Below, one piece after another: positions 4,920-63,099 of a stretch of DNA of 64,000 nt. How positions within the stretch are numbered: position 1 is the stretch's first letter; the number at the start of each line of letters is the position of its first letter. Source of the stretch: Phycisphaerales bacterium (lineage in GTDB: Bacteria; Planctomycetota; Phycisphaerae; Phycisphaerales; UBA1924); NCBI GenBank assembly GCA_029260495.1, contig JAJDDD010000012.1:62001-126000 (forward strand), given 5' to 3'. The notes beneath the pieces are model-generated. The model ran no database searches and was not told the origin of the DNA. It saw nothing but the letters and a program-made list of their open reading frames with translations. The position numbers were made by a program, and so were the translations under genes.

Positions 4920-6013
4920 GTGTTGATCCAGGCGCCGGACAGCGGCGCGGGGGCGGGGACGCCGGTGACCCCCGGGATGGTGATGGGCACACCATCTGCG
5001 CACAGAGCGCCCAGAATCGCAATCGCGGCGCTTTCTCGATGTGCGCTGGGAATCCCGAGTTCATCCGTTGTGCGCACAGGTTTGCGGGCGGCGCGTTCAA
5101 TGAAGCGCAAGAGTGTTGTATTCCTGGCGCCGCCCCCGGCACAGAGCACGCTGTCAGTTTCTTTCACACAATCTGCGATCACGCGCGCTAGTGACTGCGC
5201 TGCGGTCGTCGCGAGATCTTCTGGCGCCAGCTGTGATGTCCATGCCTCAAGCCAGGCGACCGGCTCATCGCCCGTCCCCAGCGATCGGTCGGCGCGGGCC
5301 TGAATTGCAAGGGCGCTGATGAGGTCGGTCATCGCGTGTGGGTCTGCTTGTCCTTTTGCGGCGGCGGCGCCTCCCTCGTCAAAAGGCTGATGCAGCGCAC
5401 GCCGGGCGACCGCGTCGAGCAGATGATTGCATGCGCACACATCGAAGGCGTGCAGGTCCGCGGGTCCGCCATCGGCTGGGAGAATCGTGATGTTGCAGAA
5501 CCCGCCAAGATTGATAATCGCGCGCGATTCCTTCTCACCTCGAAAGAGAATGTAATCCGCGATGGGTGTGATCGGCGCTCCCTGCCCGCCATGGATCAGG
5601 TCGGCGCCGCGCATATCAAAGACAATGGGGCAGTCAGCGACGCGCGTGACGGGCCACGGATTGACAAGCTGCCATGAGAGGGGGGGGCGATGGAATACTG
5701 TTTGTCCGTGGAGGGCGATCAGGTCGGGGGCGCCAACGCCGGAATCAGCCAGCAGCTTCTCGATGACGTCCGCATGCATTTCGCCGAGCGCCGCCGAAGC
5801 GTCGACAATCTGCGAAGCGAGAACCGCTCGCTCGTCGGCCAGCACGCGGAAGAGATCCGCGATGGACTCGAATGGCTTTGACGCCGTCGCGAGGAGCTCT
5901 GCAGTGATCTCGTATCCAGTTCCATGAATGCGCACAGCCGCTGCATCCAGCCCGTCCATGCTGGTCCCGGTCATGCACCCGATCACGAGCCGAGATGGCG
6001 GCTGATCACCCAT
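4859..6013 (-). CDS. anmK: Anhydro-N-acetylmuramic acid kinase AnmK
   Basis: AnmK opens the 1,6-anhydro ring of anhydroMurNAc and phosphorylates it to MurNAc-6-phosphate. The N-terminal GCMTGTSMDGLDAA motif, the LIALHGQTVFHRP and IINLGGFCNIT stretches and the CAGGGARN nucleotide-site motif identify the family clearly. The ATG at 6013 puts MGDQPPSRL directly before the first strand and gives 384 residues, a normal size; a TTG at 6052 would add 13 residues. It is the first gene of the minus-strand operon anmK-murQ-symporter-nagZ and overlaps murQ by 61 bases, so the two are probably coupled. Confidence 0.95.
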   Translation of the reverse strand: MGDQPPSRLVIGCMTGTSMDGLDAAAVRIHGTGYEITAELLATASKPFESIADLFRVLADERAVLASQIVDASAALGEMHADVIEKLLADSGVGAPDLIALHGQTVFHRPPLSWQLVNPWPVTRVADCPIVFDMRGADLIHGGQGAPITPIADYILFRGEKESRAIINLGGFCNITILPADGGPADLHAFDVCACNHLLDAVARRALHQPFDEGGAAAAKGQADPHAMTDLISALAIQARADRSLGTGDEPVAWLEAWTSQLAPEDLATTAAQSLARVIADCVKETDSVLCAGGGARNTTLLRFIERAARKPVRTTDELGIPSAHRESAAIAILGALCADGVPITIPGVTGVPAPAPLSGAWINTCPATPQPRPTERRSTEATS

Positions 6014-9976: not shown

Positions 9977-10996
9977 TCAGCCGTACCGGCTGATGAGATC
10001 AATAATCTTGGGCTGGTCGCGTTTAATCTGCACGCTCTTGCGCAGCGCTCCCAGCGCGCCGCGCCGGGACTCCAGATCCTGCCTTCCGCTGAGCAGGTAC
10101 TTGTTGAGCAAACACACACCGACGCCGTTGTACGCGGGGTAGTGTCGCGCGTCCAGAGTGACTGCCTGCTCGAAGGCTTCCTGTGCATCGCCGCGCCGGC
10201 GCAGATGGAAGAAGGCTGACCCAAGTCGTTCGTACGCCAAGGCTGATGGCTCCAGGCGGATGAGTTGCTGGAGCGTGTTGACCATTTCCTGATAGCGTTT
10301 GGCCTTGCCCAAGCTGTCAGCAAGGTTAATCAGAAGCGTCGGTGTGAGGTCCATGAGCTCCGCCGCTGCCTGGTACTCATCGACCGCGTCATTGTGCCGG
10401 CCCATCGCGGCGTAGACCGCTCCAAGATTCACCCGGCTGGGCCCGTGACTCGAAACAAGCTGCACCGCGCGCCGGGCGTAGGGGAGCGCTTGCCTGGGCT
10501 CATCAAGCTGAAGATAGGCGGTCGCGAGATTGAGATTCGCCTCGTGGTGATCAGGATCAATAGAGAGAGCCCGCAGGTAAGCGCGGACAGCGTCTGTGAG
10601 CCGGTCGAGCAGCTGAAGCATCAATCCGTGGTTGAACTGCGTTTTGAAGTGGTGAGGCTCAAGGCGGGCCGCCTTCCCGTAGGCAGCCTCGGCGGCGAAA
10701 TGATCCCCCTGCACCTGATAGATATCCGCAATCCCGACATAGGCGTTCGCGAGTTCCGGATTCTCAGCGATGGCCTGCTCGAAGAGCGCGATCGCCTCGG
10801 AAAGCTGACCATCATCAATCGCCTGCTGACCCTGAATCACATAGGTCTCAGCATTGGCTTTGGACTGTTGAATGGGAGAAGCGCCTTGTCGAACACAGCC
10901 AGCCAATGTCAGCAGCGCAAGGCACGCCAGGCACAGTCTTTGCGCTTTCCATCCGCTTGGCAGTTCGTTCTTCAAGGCTTTCACGCGATCATCCAT
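9977..10996 (-). CDS. TPR lipoprotein
   Basis: The N-terminus has a basic stretch, a hydrophobic core (LCLACLALLTLAGC) and a lipobox with Cys34, so it should be a lipid-anchored envelope protein. From about residue 45 to the end it consists of seven or so tetratricopeptide repeats (for example AIALFEQAIAENPELANAYV and AVRAYLRALSIDPDHHEANL). It resembles PilF/NlpI-type TPR lipoproteins in layout, but no specific role can be assigned. It ends only 24 bases from the convergent FG-GAP gene. The next upstream gene on the same strand (endonuclease IV) ends 21 bases before its start, so the two may be co-transcribed. Confidence 0.85.
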   Translation of the reverse strand: MDDRVKALKNELPSGWKAQRLCLACLALLTLAGCVRQGASPIQQSKANAETYVIQGQQAIDDGQLSEAIALFEQAIAENPELANAYVGIADIYQVQGDHFAAEAAYGKAARLEPHHFKTQFNHGLMLQLLDRLTDAVRAYLRALSIDPDHHEANLNLATAYLQLDEPRQALPYARRAVQLVSSHGPSRVNLGAVYAAMGRHNDAVDEYQAAAELMDLTPTLLINLADSLGKAKRYQEMVNTLQQLIRLEPSALAYERLGSAFFHLRRRGDAQEAFEQAVTLDARHYPAYNGVGVCLLNKYLLSGRQDLESRRGALGALRKSVQIKRDQPKIIDLISRYG

Positions 10997-11017
10997 AATC
11001 AGGGTGGACTCAGATTC

Positions 11018-11980
11018 TCAACTTCTCGACGCCGACTTTCCTGATGAAGTTCGACGTTTGCCTTTCATCTCGACCACATCAGTCCCTTGATCCGACGGCG
11101 GGCGAATCAGCTTCTTCAGGCGATTGAGGTTGAGTGTGTCCAGCGGGGTTCCTTTCGGCGTTTTCCCCTTCGGCGTTTCCATGATTTTCGGTACACCTCT
11201 CAACCGGGGATGGTTCACCACGGCTGAAAAGGCGCCAAGGCCTATCTGGCCCTTTCCGATGTGCTCATGCCGATCCAGCCGAGAGCCCATCGCTCCCTTT
11301 GAGTCATTCAGATGCAGGACACGCAGGTGTTCAAGCCCGCAGCAGGCATCGAACTCCTCGAGAACGGCCTGCGCGGTCGCCTCACTCGATAGGTCATAGC
11401 CAGCGGCGAAAGCGTGGCAGGTATCCAAACAAAAGCCTACCCTGCCCTTGGCGTCAGCTCCCGCTTCCTCGTGGATGAGCGCGGAGAGTTGGGCCAACTC
11501 CTCGAAAGTCCGCCCGAGCGTCGAGCCGGCGCCGGCGGTGTCCTCCAGGCACATCATCACGTTGCAGCCCCGCGTCTCCCGAAAGAGCCGCTTGTACGCC
11601 TTAGCGATCCGCCCAAGCCCTGCCTCGACTCCGGAGCCGGTATGGGCGCCCGGGTGGGAAACGAGCAGGGGGATGTTCAACTGGGCGCAGCGCTCGATCT
11701 CCTCGCGCATCAGAACGATTGACTTCTCCCACAGTTCATCATCCGGGCTCGCCAGGTTGATGAGGTAGGCATCGTGCGCAACGACGCGGTCGGCCCACCC
11801 CAGGCGGTTGAGCTCAGCACACCAATCCCTTACTGCACCCGGGTCCAGCGGGCGCACGCGCCACTGCCTTTGGTTCTTGGTGAAGATCTGCACGGTGTCG
11901 AGCTTGAGGGCTTGAGCATCGTGCAGCGCATTGACCAAGGCGCCCGCGATGGAGAGATGAGAGCCGAACATGGGCGCCAT
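11018..11980 (-). CDS. nfo: Endonuclease IV (deoxyribonuclease IV)
   Basis: Nfo cuts DNA at abasic sites in base-excision repair. The sequence shows the TIM-barrel family motifs in order: GSHLSIAGAL at the N-terminus, NLASPDDELWEKSI, SHPGAHTGSG, CLEDTAGAGSTLG, CLDTCHAFAAGYD and HLNDSKGAMGSRLDRHEHIG, which supply the His, Glu and Asp ligands of the three-zinc site. At about 320 residues it is slightly longer than the E. coli protein (285) because of a Lys/Arg/Ser-rich tail after IRPP. ATG at 11980 or 11971 are both possible starts. Confidence 0.95.
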   Translation of the reverse strand: MAPMFGSHLSIAGALVNALHDAQALKLDTVQIFTKNQRQWRVRPLDPGAVRDWCAELNRLGWADRVVAHDAYLINLASPDDELWEKSIVLMREEIERCAQLNIPLLVSHPGAHTGSGVEAGLGRIAKAYKRLFRETRGCNVMMCLEDTAGAGSTLGRTFEELAQLSALIHEEAGADAKGRVGFCLDTCHAFAAGYDLSSEATAQAVLEEFDACCGLEHLRVLHLNDSKGAMGSRLDRHEHIGKGQIGLGAFSAVVNHPRLRGVPKIMETPKGKTPKGTPLDTLNLNRLKKLIRPPSDQGTDVVEMKGKRRTSSGKSASRS

Positions 11981-47728: not shown

Positions 47729-48403
47729 TTATGCGCTGACAGGCTGTGCGTGGCGCGCCGGATCCGTCGCTGTCTCTTGATCCGCCCAGATGAACTCGAT
47801 TTCTACATCGAAGAGTGAGAGCAGCGTCGCCAACTGGCGTTCCACACTTCGGCGGGCTTCGAGTTCGTATTTGATATCGTTCTTTTCGTAGAGTTCGGCG
47901 GCCTGGGATTGGGCGCGTTGCATGAGGTCTTTTTGGGTGGGGGCGTCGACCTGGATGATGTCGAGCAAACCCAGCATTCGGCCGGCCTGGATGTCGTAGG
48001 GGGAGACATCGGTGAGGCGGAGTGTTCCTTCGATGGCGGGGAGGCGGACGCGGAACCTGCCTTCGGCGAGTTCATCGACATCGCGCGGGGTGAGGCGGTT
48101 GAGGTCGATGGAGTATTGCTTTTCGAAGTTGAAGATCATGGCGAGGCGGGCCTGACTCAGAATGAGCGGCGGGAGCCAGCCCCAGCCTTTCTTCGACGTT
48201 GCGATTTCCTTGGCGCAGACTTCCAGGCCGATGAGCCTGCCGACGGCGGTGACGCGCTCGAAGATGGTCTGGGTTTGGATGGTTTCGATGGGGGCGGACT
48301 TGCCGCGCTTGCGCAGGAGCATGACGCCGAGCACGAGGGCGAGCGCGAGGAGGAGGCCGGTCGCGATCGCGAGTGCGATGATGGTGAGTGTGCCTGAGAT
48401 CAC
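47729..48403 (-). CDS. DUF4230-like membrane-anchored protein
   Basis: A single N-terminal membrane helix (about 5-30) is followed by a soluble domain. The pattern ARLAMIFNFEKQYSIDLNRL, then RFRVRLPAIEGTLRLTDVSP, then a charged helix (RAQSQAAELYEKNDIKYELE) and a final IEFIWAD strand agrees with the DUF4230 family, whose function is unknown. GTG at 48403 follows a GAGGAG ribosome site. It is the last gene of a minus-strand run that begins at 53542. Confidence 0.7.
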   Translation of the reverse strand: MISGTLTIIALAIATGLLLALALVLGVMLLRKRGKSAPIETIQTQTIFERVTAVGRLIGLEVCAKEIATSKKGWGWLPPLILSQARLAMIFNFEKQYSIDLNRLTPRDVDELAEGRFRVRLPAIEGTLRLTDVSPYDIQAGRMLGLLDIIQVDAPTQKDLMQRAQSQAAELYEKNDIKYELEARRSVERQLATLLSLFDVEIEFIWADQETATDPARHAQPVSA

Positions 48404-48542
48404 GGGGTAGCTCCTCGAGGGAAACGGGCAGGGCGGGATCGCGCGAGGTCTGATCGAAAGTCTGATCGAAAGAAAGGGCGATCCACCTTCCTTGTTGTGA
48501 TCTTAGGGGCGCGTCTTGCAAGGAATCGCATTGAAAATGAGT

Positions 48543-49388
48543 TCATTGCCCCGGTGGGTTGGCGTTTTGTGACTTGTTTTGCGTGTATTTTCGGACCATC
48601 GGGCGGACGGCGGCGTCGGAGAGGCGGGGGACGAAGGCGGAGATGGAGATGCCAAGGCGGACGGGCCAGCTGGTCCAGACTTCGGGGCGGGGGCGGCGGA
48701 GGGCTTTGATGGTGGCGCGAGCGACGCGCTCGGGGGATTGTTTGAGTCGATCGGGTTGGTGGCTGACGAGTTTGGAGCTTTGAGATTGGTCGGCGGCGCG
48801 ATCGAAGAATTCTGTTTTCGTGCCGACGGGGTAGATGGTGGAGACGTGGACGCCGAAGGGTTCGAGTTCGAGGCGCATGGCGCGGCCGATGTGATGTTGG
48901 GCGGATTTGGTGGCGCTGTATGCGGCGTAGTAGACGAGGGGGTGGCGGGCGACGCAGCTTGAGCAGAGGAGGATGTGGCCTTGCTGGGCGCGCATGAGGT
49001 GGGGGAGCGCGGGGCGGATGGTGTTGAGGGCGCCGAAGAAGTTTGTTTCGAAGATGTCGCGCATTTCTGCGTCGGACATTTCGTGGATTGCTTTTTCGAG
49101 GCCGTAGCCGGCGTTTGCGTAGACGGCGTAGATGGAGCCGAAGGCTTCGATGGCGCGCGCTATCATTTCATCGCAGGCTTGTGTGTTGGTGACATCGACC
49201 TGGAATGGTTCGGCGGCGCCGCCTTCCTGGCGGATGTGTTCGACGAGCTCTTCGAGTTTTTCAAGGCGGCGTGCGGCGACGAGGACGGGCATGCCGGCGC
49301 GGGCGCAGGCGAGAGCAGCAGCGCGGCCGATGCCGGAGCTGGCGCCGGTGATGCAGATGGGTTTGTTTTTGAGGTTGATTGGGGGCAT
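48543..49388 (-). CDS. Short-chain dehydrogenase/reductase
   Basis: The protein has the classical SDR motifs: cofactor site TGASSGIGRA near residue 14, NAGYG (NAG motif), catalytic Ser in CSSCVARHP and the YSATK active-site Tyr and Lys, with a C-terminal extension ending in a basic tail. It would reduce a ketone or oxidise an alcohol with NAD(P). It is transcribed with two ketoacyl synthases, so a ketoacyl reductase role is a reasonable guess. The ATG at 49388 lies 6 bases after TACAAT; longer versions of the frame have no homology. Confidence 0.9.
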   Translation of the reverse strand: MPPINLKNKPICITGASSGIGRAAALACARAGMPVLVAARRLEKLEELVEHIRQEGGAAEPFQVDVTNTQACDEMIARAIEAFGSIYAVYANAGYGLEKAIHEMSDAEMRDIFETNFFGALNTIRPALPHLMRAQQGHILLCSSCVARHPLVYYAAYSATKSAQHHIGRAMRLELEPFGVHVSTIYPVGTKTEFFDRAADQSQSSKLVSHQPDRLKQSPERVARATIKALRRPRPEVWTSWPVRLGISISAFVPRLSDAAVRPMVRKYTQNKSQNANPPGQ

Positions 49389-49465
49389 GGGGGGATTGTA
49401 TGGGAAGGGGTGCGCGGGGAGTTGCGAAAGGCATGGAGTGCGCTCGTAGGTTGCGCGCAGGTGTG

Positions 49466-50221
49466 TTATGGGTTGCGCTGTGTGCGCAGTGAGAGGAGGA
49501 GGCGGTCTTGTTCGGGAGTGATGGTGAGGAGTTCGATGCGGCGGCCGTCTTCTAGAGTGAAGGCGGCATCCGGGAAGAGTGGAGCGGCGCCTTCGAGGGC
49601 GCTCAGCGCAGCGACAGCAGAGTCTTTGTTGCGGATGGAGTCGGGGAGCCATTCGCGGAGGGCGGCGATGGTCCAGCCGCGGGGGAGGTCGAGGCGTCCC
49701 GCCTGGGTGGCGGCGATGCGGAGCCAGAATGCATGCGCGTCGTCGATGCTTGCTTCGACAGTTGCGGCGACGATGTGCTCGTTTTCGTTGGTAGTGAGGC
49801 GGGCGCCGACGGAGATTTGTTCGGGCTCGAAGTTGACCTGGAGTTCGTTGAGTTGGTCGGGCCATTCGATGCTGCGGTTGGCGAGCCACTTGGGGAGCTT
49901 GGCGTTGAGCCAGGCGTTGGCTTGCTCTTCGGTGATTTCGACGGTCCAGGCGCCATCGGCGGGTTGTTGATTGTGGACGAGTGTGAGCAGGCCGCGCTCG
50001 ACTTGCTCTGCGAGGTTGAGTGTTGCTTCTTCGTGTTCGGGGGAATGCGCGATGGGCGCTTCGCGCCACCATGTTGGTTGTTGGCCGGCGAGTGAAGAGG
50101 CGCGAAGGGCGGCGACGGTGGCGGCGGCGATCATGATGAGGACTGCGGCGGCGGCGATGGCGCTGATGCGCGGGGAGCGCTTGGGGAAAGTGATGAGATA
50201 GTTCAGGAGCGTGTTCACCAC
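49466..50221 (-). CDS. Hypothetical membrane-anchored protein
   Basis: The 251-residue protein has one N-terminal membrane helix (about 18-40, ISAIAAAAVLIMIAAATVAA) and a soluble domain with the pattern VEITEEQANAWLNAKLPKWL and EPEQISVGARLTTNENEHIV, suggestive of an envelope-facing beta-rich fold. I recognise no named family. It follows the ketoacyl synthase by 75 bases and precedes the SDR by 77, so it probably belongs to the same operon. Confidence 0.65.
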   Translation of the reverse strand: MVNTLLNYLITFPKRSPRISAIAAAAVLIMIAAATVAALRASSLAGQQPTWWREAPIAHSPEHEEATLNLAEQVERGLLTLVHNQQPADGAWTVEITEEQANAWLNAKLPKWLANRSIEWPDQLNELQVNFEPEQISVGARLTTNENEHIVAATVEASIDDAHAFWLRIAATQAGRLDLPRGWTIAALREWLPDSIRNKDSAVAALSALEGAAPLFPDAAFTLEDGRRIELLTITPEQDRLLLSLRTQRNP

Positions 50222-50296
50222 GATTGGCCCGGAGTTTGGTAAAGGGGAAGGCGGAAGAACATCCGGCCGGACATGGTGTGAACAGCGAAAGGAAGA

Positions 50297-51667
50297 TCAG
50301 GGTTCAAAGCGTTTGATGATGAGCGTGTTGTTTTGACCGCCGAAACCGAAGGAGTTTGAGAGCGCGATCTTGACGCCGCCCGTTTGGTTGAGGTCGCGGG
50401 CCTGATTGGGGACGTAGTCGAGATCGCAGACGGGATCAGGGATGGTGTAGTTGATGGTGGGCGGGACAAAGCCCGTGCGGATGGTTTGCACGCATGTGAT
50501 GGCCTCGACGGCGCCGGCGGCGGCGATGAGATGGCCCATCATGGACTTGATTGAGCTGATGGGAATTTTGTAGGCGTTGTCAGCGAAAACAGCTTTGATG
50601 CCGGTGGTTTCGATGGAATCGTTTTCTTTGGTGCCTGTGCCGTGCGCGCTGATGTAGTGGATGGGCGGGCGGCCTGATTCGTCTGTTGTGTGGGGGTTGA
50701 TGTGCGCTTGCTGAAGGGCGTGGGCCATGGAGGCTTTGGCGCCGAGGCCGTCGGGCTGGATGTCGGTGATGCGGAATGCGTCTGCGGAGGAGCCGAAGCC
50801 GACGATTTCGGCGAGCGGCTGCGCGTTGCGTGCCTGGGCGTGTTCGAGGGATTCAAGAATGAGTATGCCGGCGCCTTCACCCATAACAAAGCCGTCGCGG
50901 TCGAGTGAGAAGGGCCTGCAGGCGCGGGCGGGGTCGCCGGCGCGGGAGGAGAGTGCGGTGAGGCGAATGAAGCCTGTGACGCCGAGCGGGTGGATCATGG
51001 TGTGAGCGCCGCCGACGATCATGACATCGGCTTCATCGCGGCGGATGATTTCGGAGGCTTCGCCGATTGCTTGTGTTGAAGCGGCGCAGGCGGTGAGACA
51101 GTTGTAGGTTGGCCCATAGGCGGCGAATGCCTGGGCGATGTGTGAGAGAGGCATGTTGGGCTCTTGCTCAACTTCGCAGCGGGCGCTCATGTTTTGATAT
51201 GCAGCGTTTGCCCAGGCGCGTGTGTCAACGGCGCGAGTTTCTTCGCGCCAGCCGGCGAGATTGGTGGCGGAGAAGGCCGGGAAATCGGGTGGCCCTTCGC
51301 CGGAGCCGAGATAGGCGCCGACTCTTTCGGTAGGTGTGTGAGCGCAGCCCGCGCGGGAAGCTCCGGGTGTTGAGACATCTCCAAGCCCGGCGTTTTTCCA
51401 GGCGTTGGCCGCAGCCGTAAGAGCAAAGCGCGTGTTGAGGCCGACGCCAATGTACGGCGCGGGGTCGGCGAAGCGCTGAGCCAGGCTCACATCGGGAGTT
51501 TGCGCAGCGAAGTTGGTCGCCATGGCGCTGGCGGGGAAATGCGTAATAGGCACAACGCCGGAGTCACCGGAAAGGAGCCTGCGCCAGACGCCTTCGATGG
51601 TGTCACCGAGCGGCGTGACCCAACCCATGCCAGTGATGACGACGCGGATTGTTCCGCTCGTGGGCAT
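50297..51667 (-). CDS. Beta-ketoacyl-ACP synthase (FabF-type)
   Basis: The 456-residue protein is a thiolase-fold condensing enzyme with an intact triad: Cys194 in TACAASTQAIG, His342 in AHGTGTKEND and His379 in KSMMGHLIAAAGA, with Lys374. It would extend acyl-ACP with malonyl-ACP. Its ATG overlaps the stop of the upstream GxxExxY gene (TAATG), so the two are translationally coupled. A second, partly degenerate synthase lies further upstream. The pair recalls KS/chain-length-factor couples, though both are FabF-like in length. Confidence 0.92.
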   Translation of the reverse strand: MPTSGTIRVVITGMGWVTPLGDTIEGVWRRLLSGDSGVVPITHFPASAMATNFAAQTPDVSLAQRFADPAPYIGVGLNTRFALTAAANAWKNAGLGDVSTPGASRAGCAHTPTERVGAYLGSGEGPPDFPAFSATNLAGWREETRAVDTRAWANAAYQNMSARCEVEQEPNMPLSHIAQAFAAYGPTYNCLTACAASTQAIGEASEIIRRDEADVMIVGGAHTMIHPLGVTGFIRLTALSSRAGDPARACRPFSLDRDGFVMGEGAGILILESLEHAQARNAQPLAEIVGFGSSADAFRITDIQPDGLGAKASMAHALQQAHINPHTTDESGRPPIHYISAHGTGTKENDSIETTGIKAVFADNAYKIPISSIKSMMGHLIAAAGAVEAITCVQTIRTGFVPPTINYTIPDPVCDLDYVPNQARDLNQTGGVKIALSNSFGFGGQNNTLIIKRFEP

Positions 51668-52161
51668 TAGTCTGAGTAGCTTTCGCTGTACTCGTGGTCG
51701 TGTTCTTCTTCGTGGTGGTCGTCGTCGCGCATCGCGTTGAGTTTGTCGGGATTCAGAACGCGGACGAGCCCGTCCTTGAGGCGGCGCTCGCCGAAGTTAA
51801 TCATGAGGCCAAGCTCAAGGTCAGCGGCGCGAAGCTGAGCGCGAAGCTTGGTGCGATCGAAGCCGTCAATCTCGCGGTGCTCAGCCATGAGTTCGACGAC
51901 GAAGCGATCGTTGACGTAGAGATCGATGTGATGTTCGCCGACTTTTTCGTCCTCATATGTGACATCGACGGCGTAATCGAGTTCGTAGGGAACCTCGAGA
52001 TCATCGAGTTCGATGCAAAGTGCTTTGCGGTAGACATCGGTGTCGAAGCCGGGGCCGAGCGCTTTGTGAACATCGATGGCGGCGCCGATGACCTGACGGC
52101 TGACATCAGTGAGTTCGGGGTCGAGGTCTTCGAGGGGGGTTGCTTTGCGGGGACGTGTCAT
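51667..52161 (-). CDS. GxxExxY-family protein with altered signature
   Basis: The 164-residue protein matches the GxxExxY family in VIGAAIDVHKALGPGFDTDVY, the VGEHHIDLYVNDRFVVEL strand pair and LGLMINFG. Members have a PD-(D/E)XK nuclease-like core. Here the signature Glu is Thr41 and the ExK motif reads Glu90-Leu-Met92, so only Asp80 of the core remains; nuclease activity is unlikely. The C-terminus is a His/Glu/Asp-rich tail. It is sandwiched between two ketoacyl synthase genes and overlaps the second by one base. Confidence 0.85.
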   Translation of the reverse strand: MTRPRKATPLEDLDPELTDVSRQVIGAAIDVHKALGPGFDTDVYRKALCIELDDLEVPYELDYAVDVTYEDEKVGEHHIDLYVNDRFVVELMAEHREIDGFDRTKLRAQLRAADLELGLMINFGERRLKDGLVRVLNPDKLNAMRDDDHHEEEHDHEYSESYSD

Positions 52162-52222
52162 GGTGAGTGTCTCACTCTCTAGGTAGTGGGTGAAGAAAAG
52201 CAGGGTTCTTGCGTGCGGGAAG

Positions 52223-53542
52223 TCAGGCGTCGATGCGTTTGAGTATGACAGCGGCGTTCTGGCCGCCCAGTGATGATGAGCATACGAGCATATGTTGAAT
52301 CGACGCGTCGCGTTGATCGGCGGCGTGGGCCTGGAGATCTGATGGGCACTTGCCAGCGTGCAGACGGGTCGGGAGGGTCTGGTGGTGGACGCAAAGGGCG
52401 CCGACGCAGGCGGCGACGCCGAACGCGCCGGCGAGGGTTTCGCCGATGGCGGGCGTGAGTGTGACGAGGGGGATTTTTTCGAGCGAGTCGCCAAAGATGG
52501 CGCGGAGGGCCGCGGCTTCTTCAAGGTCGAGGTCGGGCACGCCGGCGGCATGGGGGAGGATCGCCTGGATCTGGTCGGGTGTGATCCCGGCGCTGCGGAT
52601 GGCGGCCCGGATGGCGTTTTGCAGGCCGACGGACCGGCGGGCGGGATCATCGCTCGCGGGAGATTGGCCGGCGCCAGCGCCTGCGAGCTGGCAGTAGGCG
52701 CCGGCGTTGCGCGCAGCTGCGGTGTCTTTGGATTCCAAAAGGATGATGCCGCCCGCTTCACCGAGGAGCGAGCCGGGCGCATCGGGATCGTATGGACTGA
52801 TGAGCGAGGCGCCGTCGGTGATGCCTTCGGTGCGAGCGAGCCGGCCGGCGAACTCGAGGCGCATCATGCCCATGGGGTTGAGTTTGGATTCGGCGCCTCC
52901 GGAGAAGCAAATATCCGCTTCGCCGCGCTCGATGATGCGCTTTGATTCACCGATGGAAAGACCGCCCGATGCTTCGGCGCAGGTGATGGTGTTGGAAGGC
53001 CCGCGGGCGTCGTGGATGATGGTGACGTGGCAGGCGAGCATGTTGGGTAGGTATTTGAGGAGCCAGAGAGGGGTGAGGTTGTTGATGGCGCCACGGCCCC
53101 AGGCTTCGTAGTCGAACTCACCGGCGTCGTTGCGCGATGTCGAGAGCGCGGCGGTGAGCTCATCGATTTCACAGGCGATCAGGCCGGCGCCGATATGACA
53201 ACCGACGCGGGCGGGGTCATAGGTGAGCGGCGTTGAGTCATCATCGCGCGTGCCTTTGGTGATGAGGCCGGCGTCGTGAACAGCGTCGAGCGAAGCGCCG
53301 ACGGCGAGTTCGATGTCACGGGCCATGACTTTGACAGCTTTGCGGTAGGTCTTGGGGACGAACTTGCGGGCGGAGAAATCGGGAATCTCGCTGGCGAGCG
53401 CGGAGGGGAAGCCGGAGGCGTCAAACCGGGTGATGGGCCCGAGCGTCGATTGCCCGGCGAGGAGGCCATCCCAGAGGGCGGCGGCGCCAACGCCAAACCC
53501 CGTGACGGCGCCCAGACCTGTGATGACGATTTCGCGAGTCAT
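52223..53542 (-). CDS. Beta-ketoacyl synthase homologue lacking the second active-site His
   Basis: The 439-residue protein has the thiolase fold of FabF (EIVITGLGAVTGFG start, CSSSLGGQNAAVILKRI end). Cys188 in NTITCAEASGG and His331 in LPHAAGVPD are in place, but the Lys and second His of the KxxxxGH motif are Thr363 and Glu368 in TLTPAIGETLAG. Condensation is therefore doubtful; it may act as a partner or chain-length factor for the intact synthase downstream. The ATG at 53542 lies 9 bases after TACACT. It is the first gene of the run. Confidence 0.87.
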   Translation of the reverse strand: MTREIVITGLGAVTGFGVGAAALWDGLLAGQSTLGPITRFDASGFPSALASEIPDFSARKFVPKTYRKAVKVMARDIELAVGASLDAVHDAGLITKGTRDDDSTPLTYDPARVGCHIGAGLIACEIDELTAALSTSRNDAGEFDYEAWGRGAINNLTPLWLLKYLPNMLACHVTIIHDARGPSNTITCAEASGGLSIGESKRIIERGEADICFSGGAESKLNPMGMMRLEFAGRLARTEGITDGASLISPYDPDAPGSLLGEAGGIILLESKDTAAARNAGAYCQLAGAGAGQSPASDDPARRSVGLQNAIRAAIRSAGITPDQIQAILPHAAGVPDLDLEEAAALRAIFGDSLEKIPLVTLTPAIGETLAGAFGVAACVGALCVHHQTLPTRLHAGKCPSDLQAHAADQRDASIQHMLVCSSSLGGQNAAVILKRIDA

Positions 53543-53660: not shown

Positions 53661-55202
53661 ATGGCAGAGATCCAAAGCATTGAGTTGATTGTGGGATTGG
53701 AGATTCACGTCGAGCTCGCGACGCGGACCAAGATGTTTACCCGCGTCCTGAGTCCGGCGCATCCTGACGCGGGGGAGCCGGCGCCGAACACGCTGATCGA
53801 CCCGGTGGTGCTGGCGTTGCCCGGGGCGCTGCCGGTCTTGAATAAGGCGGCGCTGGAGATGGCGATGCTGGTGGGTCTTGCGCTGGAGTGTGAGATCGCA
53901 GAGTTCACAAAGTGGGACCGAAAGAGCTACTACTACCCGGACCTGCCCAAGAGCTATCAGATTAGTCAGTACGACCTGCCGATTTGCTTTGACGGTTCGT
54001 TTGATCTTCCGGCGCCGACGACCGATGAGCCGGCGCGCATCAAGCAGGTGGGAATTATTCGTGCCCACTTGGAAGAAGACACGGGCAAGCTTTTGCATGA
54101 GCTTCCCGGTGGGGAGCGGGTTGAGTATTCGATCGTGGATTTCAATCGCGCGGGTACGCCACTCCTGGAAATTGTCACGCAGCCCGATTTTGACAATGCG
54201 GATGATGTCGTGACGTTCGGACAGGCGCTGCGGAACATCTGCCGGTTTTTAGAGGTTTCCGAGGGTGTGATGCAGCGGGGGCACATGCGCTTTGAGCCAA
54301 ACATCAATACGATATTAACGCTGGATGACGGGCGGATTGTGAAGACCCCGATTGTTGAGATTAAAAACTTGAACTCATTCCGAGCGCTGCGCGGGGCGAT
54401 CGAGTACGAGTTTGCCGAGCAGCCTGAACGCTGGAAGCGCGATGGCAAGGAGATGGGCCCGGGCGCAAAGTCGACGCGCGGGTGGGATGATGTCAAAGGC
54501 GCGACGGTGCTGCAGCGCGAGAAAGAAGATGCGCACGATTACCGATATTTTCCCGATCCGGATCTGATTCCGGTGGTGGTTGATGAAGCGTGGCGCGAAG
54601 AGGTGCGCAGCCGGCTGCCGGAGCTTCCCCATCGGCGGATGAAACGGTACATGGATGACTACGCTCTCACGGTGAAGGAGGCAGCCGCGCTGACGGACGA
54701 GCGGGAGGTGTGCTTCTTCTTTGAGCGAACAGTCGATGTGATCCGGCAAAAGCTCGAGTCGATTCTGCCCGAGCGGGCGGGGAAGCAGGCGGCGAATATG
54801 CTTTTGCAATATGGGGCGAAGCGGGCGAATGAAGCGGGATGTTTGATTTCCGAGCTTGGGATATCACCGGAACAGGTGGCGGGGATTGTTTCGTTGCGCG
54901 ATGGGGACACGATCGGCTCGAGCGCGGCCGATGAGTTGTTCGGGTTGCTGTGCGAAAGCGATGAGGACGCGGAGCAGATCGCGGAGAAGAGCAATCTGCT
55001 GCAGGTGACGGATTCGGGGCAGCTTGAAGCATGGGTCGAGCAGGTGATCGCGGATCCAGCCAATGCGAAGGCAGTTGAGGATGTCCGAGGCGGGAAGATA
55101 GCTGCGATCGGGAGATTGGTGGGCGGGGTGATGAAGCTCTCAGGCGGGGCAGCGGACGCGAAAGCTGTGCGCGAAATGCTGGTGGCGAAGCTGGGGAGCT
55201 GA
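53661..55202 (+). CDS. gatB: Aspartyl/glutamyl-tRNA amidotransferase subunit B
   Basis: GatB is the kinase/tRNA-binding subunit of the GatCAB complex that turns Glu-tRNA(Gln) or Asp-tRNA(Asn) into the amide forms. Motifs include LIVGLEIHVELATRTKMF, KWDRKSYYYPDLPKSYQISQ, LEEDTGKLLHELPG, DFNRAGTPLLEIVT and EIKNLNSFRALRGAIEYE, with the YqeY-like C-terminal domain (about 360-513). It is 513 residues, slightly longer than usual. gatC and gatA are not adjacent. Confidence 0.96.
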   Translation: MAEIQSIELIVGLEIHVELATRTKMFTRVLSPAHPDAGEPAPNTLIDPVVLALPGALPVLNKAALEMAMLVGLALECEIAEFTKWDRKSYYYPDLPKSYQISQYDLPICFDGSFDLPAPTTDEPARIKQVGIIRAHLEEDTGKLLHELPGGERVEYSIVDFNRAGTPLLEIVTQPDFDNADDVVTFGQALRNICRFLEVSEGVMQRGHMRFEPNINTILTLDDGRIVKTPIVEIKNLNSFRALRGAIEYEFAEQPERWKRDGKEMGPGAKSTRGWDDVKGATVLQREKEDAHDYRYFPDPDLIPVVVDEAWREEVRSRLPELPHRRMKRYMDDYALTVKEAAALTDEREVCFFFERTVDVIRQKLESILPERAGKQAANMLLQYGAKRANEAGCLISELGISPEQVAGIVSLRDGDTIGSSAADELFGLLCESDEDAEQIAEKSNLLQVTDSGQLEAWVEQVIADPANAKAVEDVRGGKIAAIGRLVGGVMKLSGGAADAKAVREMLVAKLGS

Positions 55203-55390: not shown

Positions 55391-55627
55391 ATGCGAAATG
55401 CGCTGAAAGGCACAACTTCAATGATGACGAACGCGGAGCGAACAAACGAACTGGATGTCGGAGCGCGGCTGATCGGAATGGCCCGGGCCGCGGCGGCAGT
55501 TCATCAGGCCCAGCTCGCGCAGCGGTGGGCGGCGGACGCAACCGGGTGGGCGGGCGATGCCGACGAGGCGGAAGCCGACGACGCACGGCCGTTCATGGCC
55601 TTCTTTAATAAGGAGGCGGCGACGTGA
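55391..55627 (+). CDS. Small Ala-rich protein ahead of flgF
   Basis: A good AGGAGG site lies 10 bases before the ATG of this 78-residue ORF, and its stop overlaps the flgF start as GTGA. The protein is Ala-rich with a helical middle (GARLIGMARAAAAVHQAQLA) and an acidic end. I recognise no family. Its coupling to flgF makes it likely to be a real gene of the flagellar operon. Confidence 0.6.
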   Translation: MRNALKGTTSMMTNAERTNELDVGARLIGMARAAAAVHQAQLAQRWAADATGWAGDADEAEADDARPFMAFFNKEAAT

Positions 55628-56403
55628 ACTACGGCCTGTACCTTTCATCTTCCGGGTTGTTGACGGGGATGCACCGGCTGGATGTCGCTGCGAACAATTT
55701 ATCGAATGTCAACACGACGGGGTTCAAGCCGGACTTTTCGGATTCGCTGCACCGTCCGACGGCGCGGGTTGAAGACGGGCTTTTCAACTTGGAATCCAGC
55801 AAGCTGCTCGAGGCGCTCGGTGGTGGGGCATTGCAGGCGCCGGCGCGGACCAACTTCACGCCGGCGGCGCCTGTCGATACGGGGAATCCACTGGATGTAG
55901 CGATTCTTGGCGAGGGCTTCTTTGTTGTTGATTCGGGGAAGGGCGCAGGAGAAGAACGGTTGCGACTCACACGCGATGGTGGGTTTCTCGTGGATCATCA
56001 GGGTTATTTGGTGACGGGCGAGAAGGGCTGGCGCGTACTTGATGAACAGGATCAACCGATTCACCTTGATCCGAATCAGGCGGTTGAGATCAACGGAGCA
56101 GGTGAGATTCGTCAGGGCGGAGCGACGGTGGCGCAGCTGCAGGTGGCCACTGTTGGGAATGTGCAGTCGCTGCACAAGGTTGGGGCGAACATGTTTGCAG
56201 CAAAGCCCGGCGCTTCGATTGATCGCGCAGCGTCACAGAGCGCGGTGCGGGCGGGGGCGCTGGAAGCGTCAGGCGTTGATCCCATCATGGCGATGATGGC
56301 GGTGCGCAAAGCTTCAGGCGCGATCAGCGACAATACACGAATGATTCGGATGCATGATGAACTCATGGGCCGGGCAATTAATACGTTTGCGCGGGTTGGT
56401 TGA
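55624..56403 (+). CDS. flgF: Flagellar basal-body rod protein FlgF
   Basis: The N-terminus (LTGMHRLDVAANNLSNVNTTGFKPD) is the flagellar rod/hook motif, and the C-terminus (GALEASGVDPIMAMMAVRKAS with IRMHDELMGRAINTFARVG) is the matching rod helix. The central GNPLDVAILGEGFFVV region fits the proximal rod protein FlgF. FlgG follows after 55 bases. The GTG start overlaps the preceding small ORF by 4 bases. Confidence 0.92.
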   Translation: MNYGLYLSSSGLLTGMHRLDVAANNLSNVNTTGFKPDFSDSLHRPTARVEDGLFNLESSKLLEALGGGALQAPARTNFTPAAPVDTGNPLDVAILGEGFFVVDSGKGAGEERLRLTRDGGFLVDHQGYLVTGEKGWRVLDEQDQPIHLDPNQAVEINGAGEIRQGGATVAQLQVATVGNVQSLHKVGANMFAAKPGASIDRAASQSAVRAGALEASGVDPIMAMMAVRKASGAISDNTRMIRMHDELMGRAINTFARVG

Positions 56404-56458
56404 AATGACTGAGTGAGCGACTGGCGATACGCAGCGCTCATCGGAAACGAGGAAATAG

Positions 56459-57268
56459 ATGGCGATTACAGCTCTGCATTCTGCTGCTTCGGGACTTTCG
56501 GCGCTCGGGCTGAAGCTTGACACGATTTCCAACAACCTTGCAAATGTTAATACGGACGGATTCAAGGCAAGTCGGGCGAACTTCCAGGATTTGCTCTATG
56601 TAGAAAAGGCGCAGCCCGGCGTTGAGAATCGCAATGGCGATCAACGGCCGACGGGGTTGTATGTGGGGTTGGGGGTGAAGGTTTCGGGGACGCAGCTTGA
56701 CTTTGCCCAGGGGCCGCCGATCGCGAGTGATCGCCCGCTGGATGTGATGATTGACGGAGCCGGATTTTTTCAAGTTCAAGTTGAAGATGCGCGGGGGGCG
56801 GGGGGCATCGGATACACACGAGCCGGGAACCTTGCGGTGAACTCTGACGGCGAGCTGGTGCTCGCGAACGATCAGGGCAGGCGGCTGGAGCCAAACATCA
56901 CGATTCCGAATGACGCAACGACAGTTCAGATTAATCGGGATGGCCAGATCTTTGCGCGCGTGCCCGGCCAGCAGGATCCGGTGAATGTCGGCGAGCTTCA
57001 ACTCGCTGCATTTGTTAATCCTGCGGGATTGCAACAGCTGGGAGAAAACTTGTTTGGTGAGACGGCGGCATCGGGGCCTCCGATTGTGGGCGAGCCGGAC
57101 ATTGATGGGCGCGGAGGAATTATTCAAAACTTTCTGGAGGGTTCAAACGTGAATCCAACGCTTGAGCTGATCAATCTGATTCGCACGCAGCGGGCCTTTG
57201 AGATGAACAGCCAAACCATTCGCGCAGCAGATGAAGCGCTGCAGCAGATCGCACAGTTGAGGCGGTAA
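56459..57268 (+). CDS. flgG: Flagellar distal rod protein FlgG
   Basis: The 269-residue protein has ALHSAASGLSALGLKLDTIS and NNLANVNTDGFKASRANFQD at the N-terminus, the FlgG-type RPLDVMIDGAGFFQVQ and GYTRAGNLAVNSDGELVLAN in the middle and the C-terminal NVNPTLELINLIRTQRAFEM. It forms the distal rod. A GAGGAAA ribosome site precedes the ATG. Confidence 0.95.
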   Translation: MAITALHSAASGLSALGLKLDTISNNLANVNTDGFKASRANFQDLLYVEKAQPGVENRNGDQRPTGLYVGLGVKVSGTQLDFAQGPPIASDRPLDVMIDGAGFFQVQVEDARGAGGIGYTRAGNLAVNSDGELVLANDQGRRLEPNITIPNDATTVQINRDGQIFARVPGQQDPVNVGELQLAAFVNPAGLQQLGENLFGETAASGPPIVGEPDIDGRGGIIQNFLEGSNVNPTLELINLIRTQRAFEMNSQTIRAADEALQQIAQLRR

Positions 57269-61369: not shown

Positions 61370-63099
61370 GTCTGACAAGTTCATTGTTAATCGGTCGGTC
61401 GGCGCTGACGGCGAGTCAGCTTGCGGTGCAGGTGACGGGTGACAATCTGGCGAATGCCGCAACGCCGGGGTATCACCGACGGGTGGCAAACCTGGCTGCG
61501 GTGCGAGGGAACATTGATTCGCGAGGTATTTACACGGGGCGCGGCGTTCAGGTGCAGTCGGTGCGGCGTGCGATTGATGAGGCGCTGGAAGGGCGGCTGC
61601 GCGCGAACTCATCTTCGCTGGAAGCAACGCTTGTGAATGAAGAGGTGCTGACGCAGATTGAATCGCTCACCAATGAGCTTGGCGGGCAGGGTGTTGGGAA
61701 TGATCTTGAGGCGCTGTTTAATGCGTTCAGTGAGCTCGCAAATAACCCTGGGGCGTCAGAGAACCGGGCCCTGATCGTAGAGCAGGGGGTTGCGGTTGCG
61801 GGACGACTACGGCGGCTGCGGACGGATCATATCGAGCTGCGCGGCGCGCTTGAGAGCGAGCTGCGGCAGACGGTGACGCGGGCGAACGAGCTTTTAAATG
61901 AGATTGCGACGTTAAACAGCGAGTTGGTGGCGTCGGAGCAGGGGCGAAGTGAGGATGCGGCGCTGCGCGACCAGCGGGATGTTGTTCTGGGTGAGCTGGC
62001 GCAGTTGGTGGATATTAATGTTGTTGAGCAGGCGTCCGGATCGGTGGATGTGCATGTGGGATCGCAGCCGATCGTTTTGGGAGATCAGAATCGCGGGCTT
62101 GAGGTGCGTGACCGAGTTGTGAATGGGGAGTCGGTGGCGGAGGTGCGGATTATTACGTCGGATGAGAGGATCACGCCGACGGGGGGGCGGATTGGCGGAC
62201 TCTTGGCGCAGCGCGACGGAGTTGTGCAGGGGACGATTGATGACATTGACGAGTTGACTAGCGGGTTAATTTATGAGGTGAACCGGATTCATTCATCGGG
62301 GCGGTCGTTTCCGGGGCTGACGGATACGATCGGGTACTTGCGCGTGGCGCCGGCAGATCAGGCGGTGTCGTTTAATGATCCTGCAAATACAACGTTTGCG
62401 GGTTTGGCGCATGGACCGACGAACGGCAGTTTTACGGTGTATGTGACGGACAGCTCGACGGGATTGGTGACCCAGACCGAAGTCTTTGTTGATCTGGATG
62501 GCGTTGACAACACGGGCGCGGCAGGGTTCGGGGACGACACCACGCTTGCATCACTTACTGCGGATCTGGGAGCGATCGGAAGTGTGAACGCGACGATTAC
62601 CGCTGCGGGTGAGCTTCGGCTTATCGCGGATGCGGGGTTTGAGATTGGATTTGCTGACGACACGTCAGGCGCGCTCGCGGCGCTGGGGATTAATACGTTC
62701 TTTGAGGGGGTGGATGGTCGGGATATTGGTGTGCGGGGTGAGATTGAGAAGAACCCGGAGCTGATTGTCGCAGGGCTTGAGCCGGGGTCCAATGAGGCGG
62801 CGCTGGGAATTGCGGAGCTGCGCGATCAGGGCGTTGACGCGTTTGGGGGAGTTTCAGTGTTGGAAAGGTGGCGTCAGACGACGGAGAGCGTCGCGGTGAA
62901 GACGCGCTCAGCGCAGACTGCTACGCGCGCGAGCCAGCAGGTGCAGCGGAGCCTGGAAGCGCAGAGCGCTGCGATCAGCGGTGTGAGCGTGGATGAAGAG
63001 TCGATCAATCTCTTGAACTTCCAGAGGCAGTATCAGGCGGCGGCGCAGTTTATTTCGACGGTGGATCAGATGACGCAAATTCTGCTGGGATTGGTGTAA
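61366..63099 (+). CDS. flgK: Flagellar hook-associated protein FlgK
   Basis: The N-terminus (LLIGRSALTASQLAVQVTGD, then NLANAATPGYHRRV) and the C-terminus (GVSVDEESINLLNFQRQYQA, then AAQFISTVDQMTQILLGLV) are the paired helices of FlgK. A domain of about 200 residues in the middle (DSSTGLVTQTEVFVDLDGVD) is the variable outer part. FlgK is the first hook-filament junction protein. Confidence 0.94.
   Translation: MSLTSSLLIGRSALTASQLAVQVTGDNLANAATPGYHRRVANLAAVRGNIDSRGIYTGRGVQVQSVRRAIDEALEGRLRANSSSLEATLVNEEVLTQIESLTNELGGQGVGNDLEALFNAFSELANNPGASENRALIVEQGVAVAGRLRRLRTDHIELRGALESELRQTVTRANELLNEIATLNSELVASEQGRSEDAALRDQRDVVLGELAQLVDINVVEQASGSVDVHVGSQPIVLGDQNRGLEVRDRVVNGESVAEVRIITSDERITPTGGRIGGLLAQRDGVVQGTIDDIDELTSGLIYEVNRIHSSGRSFPGLTDTIGYLRVAPADQAVSFNDPANTTFAGLAHGPTNGSFTVYVTDSSTGLVTQTEVFVDLDGVDNTGAAGFGDDTTLASLTADLGAIGSVNATITAAGELRLIADAGFEIGFADDTSGALAALGINTFFEGVDGRDIGVRGEIEKNPELIVAGLEPGSNEAALGIAELRDQGVDAFGGVSVLERWRQTTESVAVKTRSAQTATRASQQVQRSLEAQSAAISGVSVDEESINLLNFQRQYQAAAQFISTVDQMTQILLGLV

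Follow-up and report, generated by a model that had tools for sequence, protein, structure and literature searches.

A degenerate and an intact ketosynthase paired across Phycisphaerae, with a candidate pseudo-nuclease partner encoded between them in one family

The window analyzed here comprises 64,000 nucleotides of a Phycisphaerales bacterium (assembly GCA_029260495.1, contig JAJDDD010000012.1, forward-strand positions 62,001 to 126,000), and its minus strand encodes, in this order, a degenerate ketoacyl synthase (KS1), a GxxExxY protein that has lost its nuclease residues, and an intact FabF-type ketoacyl synthase (KS2). Judged by sequence, KS1-KS2 has the anatomy of a KSα/KSβ pair, in which KS1 is very probably the non-catalytic partner of KS2 in a heterodimer, and the GxxExxY gene between them is an innovation of one GTDB family with a single origin. 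Taken as a whole, the explanation that we favour, a KSβ-KSα enzyme that makes a long acyl chain for an envelope lipid and has recruited a pseudo-nuclease as accessory subunit, is put forward tentatively, at slightly less than even confidence.

KS1 (52223..53542, minus strand) carries the N- and C-terminal Pfam ketoacyl-synt domains, and we class it as KSβ- or chain-length-factor (CLF)-like on these domains, its residues, its class-wide conservation and its position in the tree. Of its catalytic positions only His331 is kept: Thr363 and Glu368 replace the Lys and His of the KxxxxGH motif, as an earlier, sequence-only reading had recognised, and a third loss, which that reading overlooked, affects the nucleophile itself, since TITCAEASGG of KS1 aligns with TVTACATAT and thereby places Glu190 at the Cys position. 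KS2 (50297..51667, minus strand), identified as KSα-like by its domain matches and residues, possesses the complete set (Cys194, His342, Lys374 and His379), in agreement with the same reading. The GxxExxY protein (51667..52161, minus strand) matches TIGR04256 (1.2e-25, 90.2 bits versus a cut-off of 35) and PDDEXK_3 (PF13366; 3.4e-25, 89.1 bits versus a cut-off of 22) and ends in an acidic tail; it retains Asp80 and Glu90 but has Thr41 for the signature Glu and Met92 for the Lys of the ExK motif (ELM), both noticed before. Its stop codon and the KS2 start overlap by one base (TAATG), also as described.

Among the 150 Phycisphaerae genomes searched, 145 contain a strong match to KS1 (E at most 1e-50). 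Outside the family of the window we collected 43 loci, 20 of them from within the order (five families) and 23 from the rest of the class, and in every one of them KS1 adjoins KS2, the two genes mostly overlapping or lying no more than 100 bases apart. In the Phycisphaerae alignment the Cys position of KS1 is taken by Glu, sometimes by Asp or Gln and once by His, in all rows bar one truncated extra copy; the second His is usually lost and the first in many rows, and a few relatives, such as those of loci L170 and L183, retain His-Lys-His. KS2 shows Cys-His-Lys-His in every row with a complete sequence. The truncated KS1-like copy lies downstream of KS1 in L189 (G072:C1:1447000-1463000; 10633-11478) and has Ala at the Cys position, and the matches to KS1 in L291 (CP053450.1; 2418-3788) and to KS2 in L115 (genome G051; 9746) are broken into segments, which could reflect frameshifts or assembly errors. 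Phylogenetically, KS1 and KS2 form two separate planctomycete clades, and because the protein closest to the KS1 clade, from genome G206, is still intact, the losses in KS1 postdate the KS1/KS2 split. The proposed condensing enzyme of two subunits, one of them non-catalytic, is thus supported by the constant adjacency of the genes and by the degeneracy of KS1 in every Phycisphaerae family examined. Since this degeneracy is class-wide, we rejected the idea that it is special to the operon of the window or linked to GxxExxY; likewise, neither KS1 nor GxxExxY can be regarded as a decaying pseudogene, as their frames are intact and conserved in dozens of genera.

The GxxExxY gene has a much narrower distribution. 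It is present in 41 of the 43 genomes of the window's GTDB family (the two that lack it are 81% and 87% complete), and the full order KS1-GxxExxY-KS2 is kept in 31 of these 41. Three further genomes (G004, G014 and G018) have KS1 and GxxExxY together with KS2 elsewhere, in G021 the missing linkage is explained by a contig break, and six (G002, G023, G072, G090, G103 and G162) have kept GxxExxY apart from KS1; KS1, KS2 and GxxExxY are all missing together from G028, whose assembly is 87% complete. When the family alignment was used to scan one genome per species, 142 relatives were obtained, the best 80 of which come from Phycisphaerae metagenome-assembled genomes (MAGs) by name or contig identity; among these 80, both neighbours are found in 70, and the rest show one neighbour or a contig edge. 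By contrast, of 76 loci only 12 retain GatB, the neighbour of KS1 in the window. One carrier of the operon, L288 (RHKP01000018.1), is titled Cyanobacteria bacterium and is apparently a mislabelled MAG. When 29 operon rows, chosen at random, and 37 canonical rows were placed in one tree, the operon copies of GxxExxY formed a single clade (support 100). The loss of catalytic residues within intact frames, which the sequence-only reading had noted for the window, holds throughout: none of 117 copies has the Lys of ExK (68 have Met and 33 Leu), the Glu of GxxExxY is retained in 23 and the Asp in 86, and the signature Gly and Tyr persist in all 117. Canonical GxxExxY copies, on the other hand, keep all nuclease residues in each of the 36 that could be aligned. 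Despite these losses, the fold of the GxxExxY protein is predicted to be still that of PD-(D/E)XK nucleases (pLDDT, the model's confidence score, 87; Z 9.1 to SSO0001 and 7.2 to BamHI); its sequence gave no match when compared with solved structures. Acidic tails occur in 19 of 36 copies and N-terminal extensions rich in Arg-Gly (RG) in 8 of 36; GxxExxY overlaps KS2 in 10 of 31 copies, much as KS1 often overlaps KS2 in other families.

At 42 of the 43 loci outside the family nothing of this kind lies between the synthases, which leaves the suggested need for a partner of nuclease fold unsupported. The remaining locus, L174 (G130:C1:1565000-1579000, family f22), encodes an intact canonical GxxExxY protein between KS1 and KS2 (5425-5856), the sole copy found in that genome; because it groups with the canonical copies, it must have arrived at this site independently of the family's gene, and it may show the onset of a capture of such a gene by the synthase pair. 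Here and below, open reading frames (ORFs) around KS1/KS2, ACP2 (the second acyl carrier protein, see below) and unlinked GxxExxY genes were named by eye unless a family search is cited. In genus g24 (L085, L262 and L261) the unlinked GxxExxY gene, with a long RGG-rich N-terminal extension, stands beside a short-chain dehydrogenase/reductase (SDR) gene, a cysteine-desulfurase-like gene and MlaF/MlaD-like genes, neighbours that are suggestive of lipids. The literature on GxxExxY yielded only incidental mentions.

The sequence-only reading saw no gene for an acyl carrier protein (ACP). Absence of an ACP from the system can be dismissed, as a dedicated one exists on another contig of the same genome. 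All ten genomes searched encode two or more ACPs, of which one typically accompanies FabF and another, ACP2, is longer; in G112 ACP2 lies immediately upstream of KS1. In other planctomycetes (L182 and L183) the ORFs form a single cluster, dehydratase-FabG-ACP2-dehydratase-KS1-KS2; L172 has the same order without FabG, and L188 and L179 resemble these loci. Contig C10 of the window's genome carries ACP2 (197241-197636) and dehydratase 2 (197678-198196) side by side, with matches to ACP and FabZ/FabA models, and the housekeeping FabG-ACP-FabF set is found on C20; these positions indicate that KS1-KS2 is part of a dedicated elongation system, separate from the housekeeping one, which has been split in this order. 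KS1-KS2 probably works with ACP2 and dehydratase 2. The genome further encodes LpxC and, on C16, a gene of the lipid A acyltransferase family.

All six minus-strand genes of the proposed operon lie where they had been placed, and its KS1-GxxExxY-KS2 core is conserved, but as one conserved six-gene unit it does not hold. The core withstood both refutation tests set by the sequence-only reading, on gene order in relatives and on the residues of close homologues. The gene 3' of KS2 (49466..50221) encodes a one-helix membrane protein, the hydrophobic stretch expected of it spanning residues 21-39; its domain (model pLDDT 91) has TULIP lipid-binding proteins as its best structural matches, with VIA-align Z scores of 5.4 to CETP, 5.0 to BPI, 5.0 to LBP and 4.7 to YceB. 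This gene recurs after KS2 in part of the relatives, namely in 13 of the 20 loci collected elsewhere in the order and in roughly one quarter of the family's own loci. The SDR-family oxidoreductase (48543..49388; adh_short, 7.4e-48) was not found beside KS2 in relatives, nor was the DUF4230 protein (47729..48403; PF14014, 4e-10, above the cut-off) found in their loci, and both are therefore regarded as mere neighbours. On the other side, a GatB-like gene divergent from KS1 and, beyond it, two flagellar basal-body-rod-like genes (53661-55202 and 55624-57268, by eye) are unrelated to the present finding.

Starting from the residue losses, the gene order, the single origin and the existence of ACP2 and dehydratase 2, which can be read directly from the sequences, we propose that KS2, with its Cys and two His, would perform the condensation, and that KS1, devoid of the nucleophile, would probably complete the pocket and thereby set the chain length. 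ACP2, which resembles rhizobial AcpXL, would carry the chain, FabG and the FabZ-like dehydratase would complete the cycle, and the whole would constitute a second dedicated fatty-acid elongation system, class-wide in Phycisphaerae. The TULIP-like neighbour, LpxC, the lipid A acyltransferase and the likeness to acpXL together point to an envelope lipid, so that the product would probably be an acyl chain, long or very long, of such a lipid, possibly lipid A. A lipid acyl chain appears more likely than a polyketide; that it is very long or hydroxylated is a suggestion to which we give not quite even chances. In the ancestor of one Phycisphaerales family, the GxxExxY gene would have inserted between the two synthase genes; its product would have lost the nuclease residues, retained the fold and become fixed as an accessory subunit that would bind or stabilise KS1-KS2 or dock ACP2. 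Linkage, joint presence and residue loss suggest that the protein is physically part of the KS1-KS2 complex, though we say so with reserve, and that the ketosynthase heterodimer of this family now depends on a PD-(D/E)XK pseudo-nuclease as an obligate third subunit is conceivable at a still more tentative level. To our knowledge, no condensing enzyme with such a partner has been described.

Several observations weigh against this explanation. KS1 shows no change specific to the window's family, and the idea that such changes form a docking surface was therefore dropped; the family-specific changes of KS2 amount to one short insert and two substitutions only. Relatives outside the family manage without GxxExxY, as described above, and the Z scores of the TULIP matches are modest. 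Moreover, KS1 and FabF2XL of S. meliloti share 23% identity and do not group in the tree, where the FabF2XL branch is very long; three Streptomyces CLFs likewise form a clade apart from planctomycete KS1; and, unlike the rhizobial acpXL cluster, KS1-KS2 has no dehydrogenase or LpxXL/acyltransferase gene beside it.

The same evidence raises the question of whether GxxExxY belongs to the enzyme at all. It might instead be an insertion outside an otherwise unchanged KS1-KS2 heterodimer, kept where it is because it is co-transcribed with KS2 and translationally coupled to it, and serving another role, such as RNA or DNA binding through the RG-rich extension and the retained fold. Such a passenger would suit the lack of any need for it in other families of the class, the RG-rich extensions and acidic tails, its retention in the six genomes where it is unlinked from KS1, and a KS1 without family-specific change. 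We nevertheless consider it rather unlikely, because the linkage to KS1/KS2 is kept in most genera whereas GatB on the other side is rarely retained, because KS1 and GxxExxY remain together in the three genomes where KS2 has moved, and because all three genes are jointly missing from G028, incomplete as that assembly is.

Two other alternatives concern the synthases themselves. KS1-KS2 could make a specialised product, i.e., a polyene, a polyunsaturated hydrocarbon or a ladderane-like chain, and no plain very-long-chain fatty acid; genes of the NP_866153 type are discussed for ladderane and polyunsaturated hydrocarbon clusters by Rattray et al. (2009; PMC2649909), and KS-CLF heterodimers do make aryl polyenes (PMC8358021). 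We find this unlikely, as the plain FabG/FabZ/ACP/KS set in nearly all class members fits a structural lipid, and as inspection by eye of the ORF lists around KS1/KS2/ACP2, for which no family search was made, revealed no gene for a radical SAM protein, a desaturase or an aromatic starter. Finally, KS1 could act alone, as a malonyl-ACP decarboxylase (a KSQ-like starter enzyme) or, as proposed in 2009, as a recruiter of a non-fatty-acid unit, and not as a structural partner of KS2. In the KSQ pattern the Cys alone is replaced and both His are retained, which the His-Lys-His of L170 and L183 recalls; in most KS1 rows, including that of the window, the second His is lost, and in many the first, and the class-wide adjacency is what would be expected of stoichiometric partners, so that we regard a solitary role as very improbable.

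The findings indicate that Phycisphaerae possess, as core equipment and not as a sporadic secondary-metabolite gene, a probable KSβ-KSα condensing enzyme that uses a dedicated carrier protein, and that Glu-for-Cys pairs beside an ACP and a dehydratase are found in two distant phyla. What the degenerate planctomycete FabF genes do, a puzzle since 2009, thereby becomes testable through lipid analysis. Should the pseudo-nuclease prove to be a subunit, it would provide a clean case of a complex that has gained a protein of unrelated fold, with relatives lacking it as natural controls.

The closest parallel is the rhizobial acpXL module. In S. meliloti the genes acpXL-fabZXL-fabF2XL-fabF1XL follow the same order (ACP, FabZ, degenerate KS, intact KS) as ACP2, dehydratase 2, KS1 and KS2, an order complete in L172, L182 and L183 and split in the window's genome, where ACP2 and the dehydratase lie on another contig. 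Both systems have a special ACP and are additional to housekeeping FabF, and ACP2 resembles AcpXL (31% over 101 residues, 7.5e-13). FabF2XL has Glu for Cys like KS1 and lacks both the Lys and the first His; the residues of FabF1XL are intact, and the module contains no GxxExxY gene. In A. fabrum, a fabF2XL mutant lacks the very-long-chain acid of lipid A (PMC11901934). We note in passing that the S. meliloti record used (L267, CP090106.1), titled pSymB, is 3.7 Mb long and carries cobalamin genes besides the acpXL cluster; it may be a mislabelled chromosome. Our search of the literature on planctomycete long-chain hydroxy acids returned nothing useful.

KSα-KSβ of type II polyketide synthases and ApeO-ApeC of aryl polyene clusters also combine adjacent intact and degenerate KSs, the nucleophile of the latter replaced, in a small heterodimeric condensing enzyme. 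The Streptomyces CLF, however, has Gln, Asp, Lys and Arg at the four catalytic positions, unlike KS1, ApeC corresponds to roughly half a KS, and there are no cyclases or aromatases at the KS1-KS2 locus. In the tree KS1 is no member of the Streptomyces CLF clade, though it may work like a CLF, and as it groups with neither CLFs nor FabF2XL, the likeness may be convergent. Degenerate planctomycete synthases have been seen before: Rattray et al. (2009; PMC2649909) describe R. baltica FabF paralogues (RB3714 and RB4527) with Asp or Glu for Cys163 and the other residues partly lost, and they describe R. baltica NP_866153 with Glu163, His298, Lys328 and Asn333, a set that matches KS1 of L185 and L187. 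They did not read the paralogues as the KSβ partner of an adjacent KS, and no nuclease-fold gene is mentioned in the part of their study considered here.

As for the third gene, operon copies share the model match and predicted fold of the GxxExxY/PDDEXK_3 family (TIGR04256, PF13366) but, unlike canonical members, lack the nuclease residues, in some cases bear RG-rich or acidic extensions, and are fixed inside a lipid operon. Non-nuclease PD-(D/E)XK folds in protein-protein or ribosomal roles are known from Rep15 with Rab3, the CidA/CidB complexes and mitoribosomal proteins, which are among the structural matches of GxxExxY; none of these is attached to a ketosynthase, and the likeness is one of fold only. 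Overall, the system is real, conserved and built mostly from known kinds of parts, the Glu-for-Cys pair having a clear analogue, and the pseudo-nuclease partner, if the contact is true, would be its new element.

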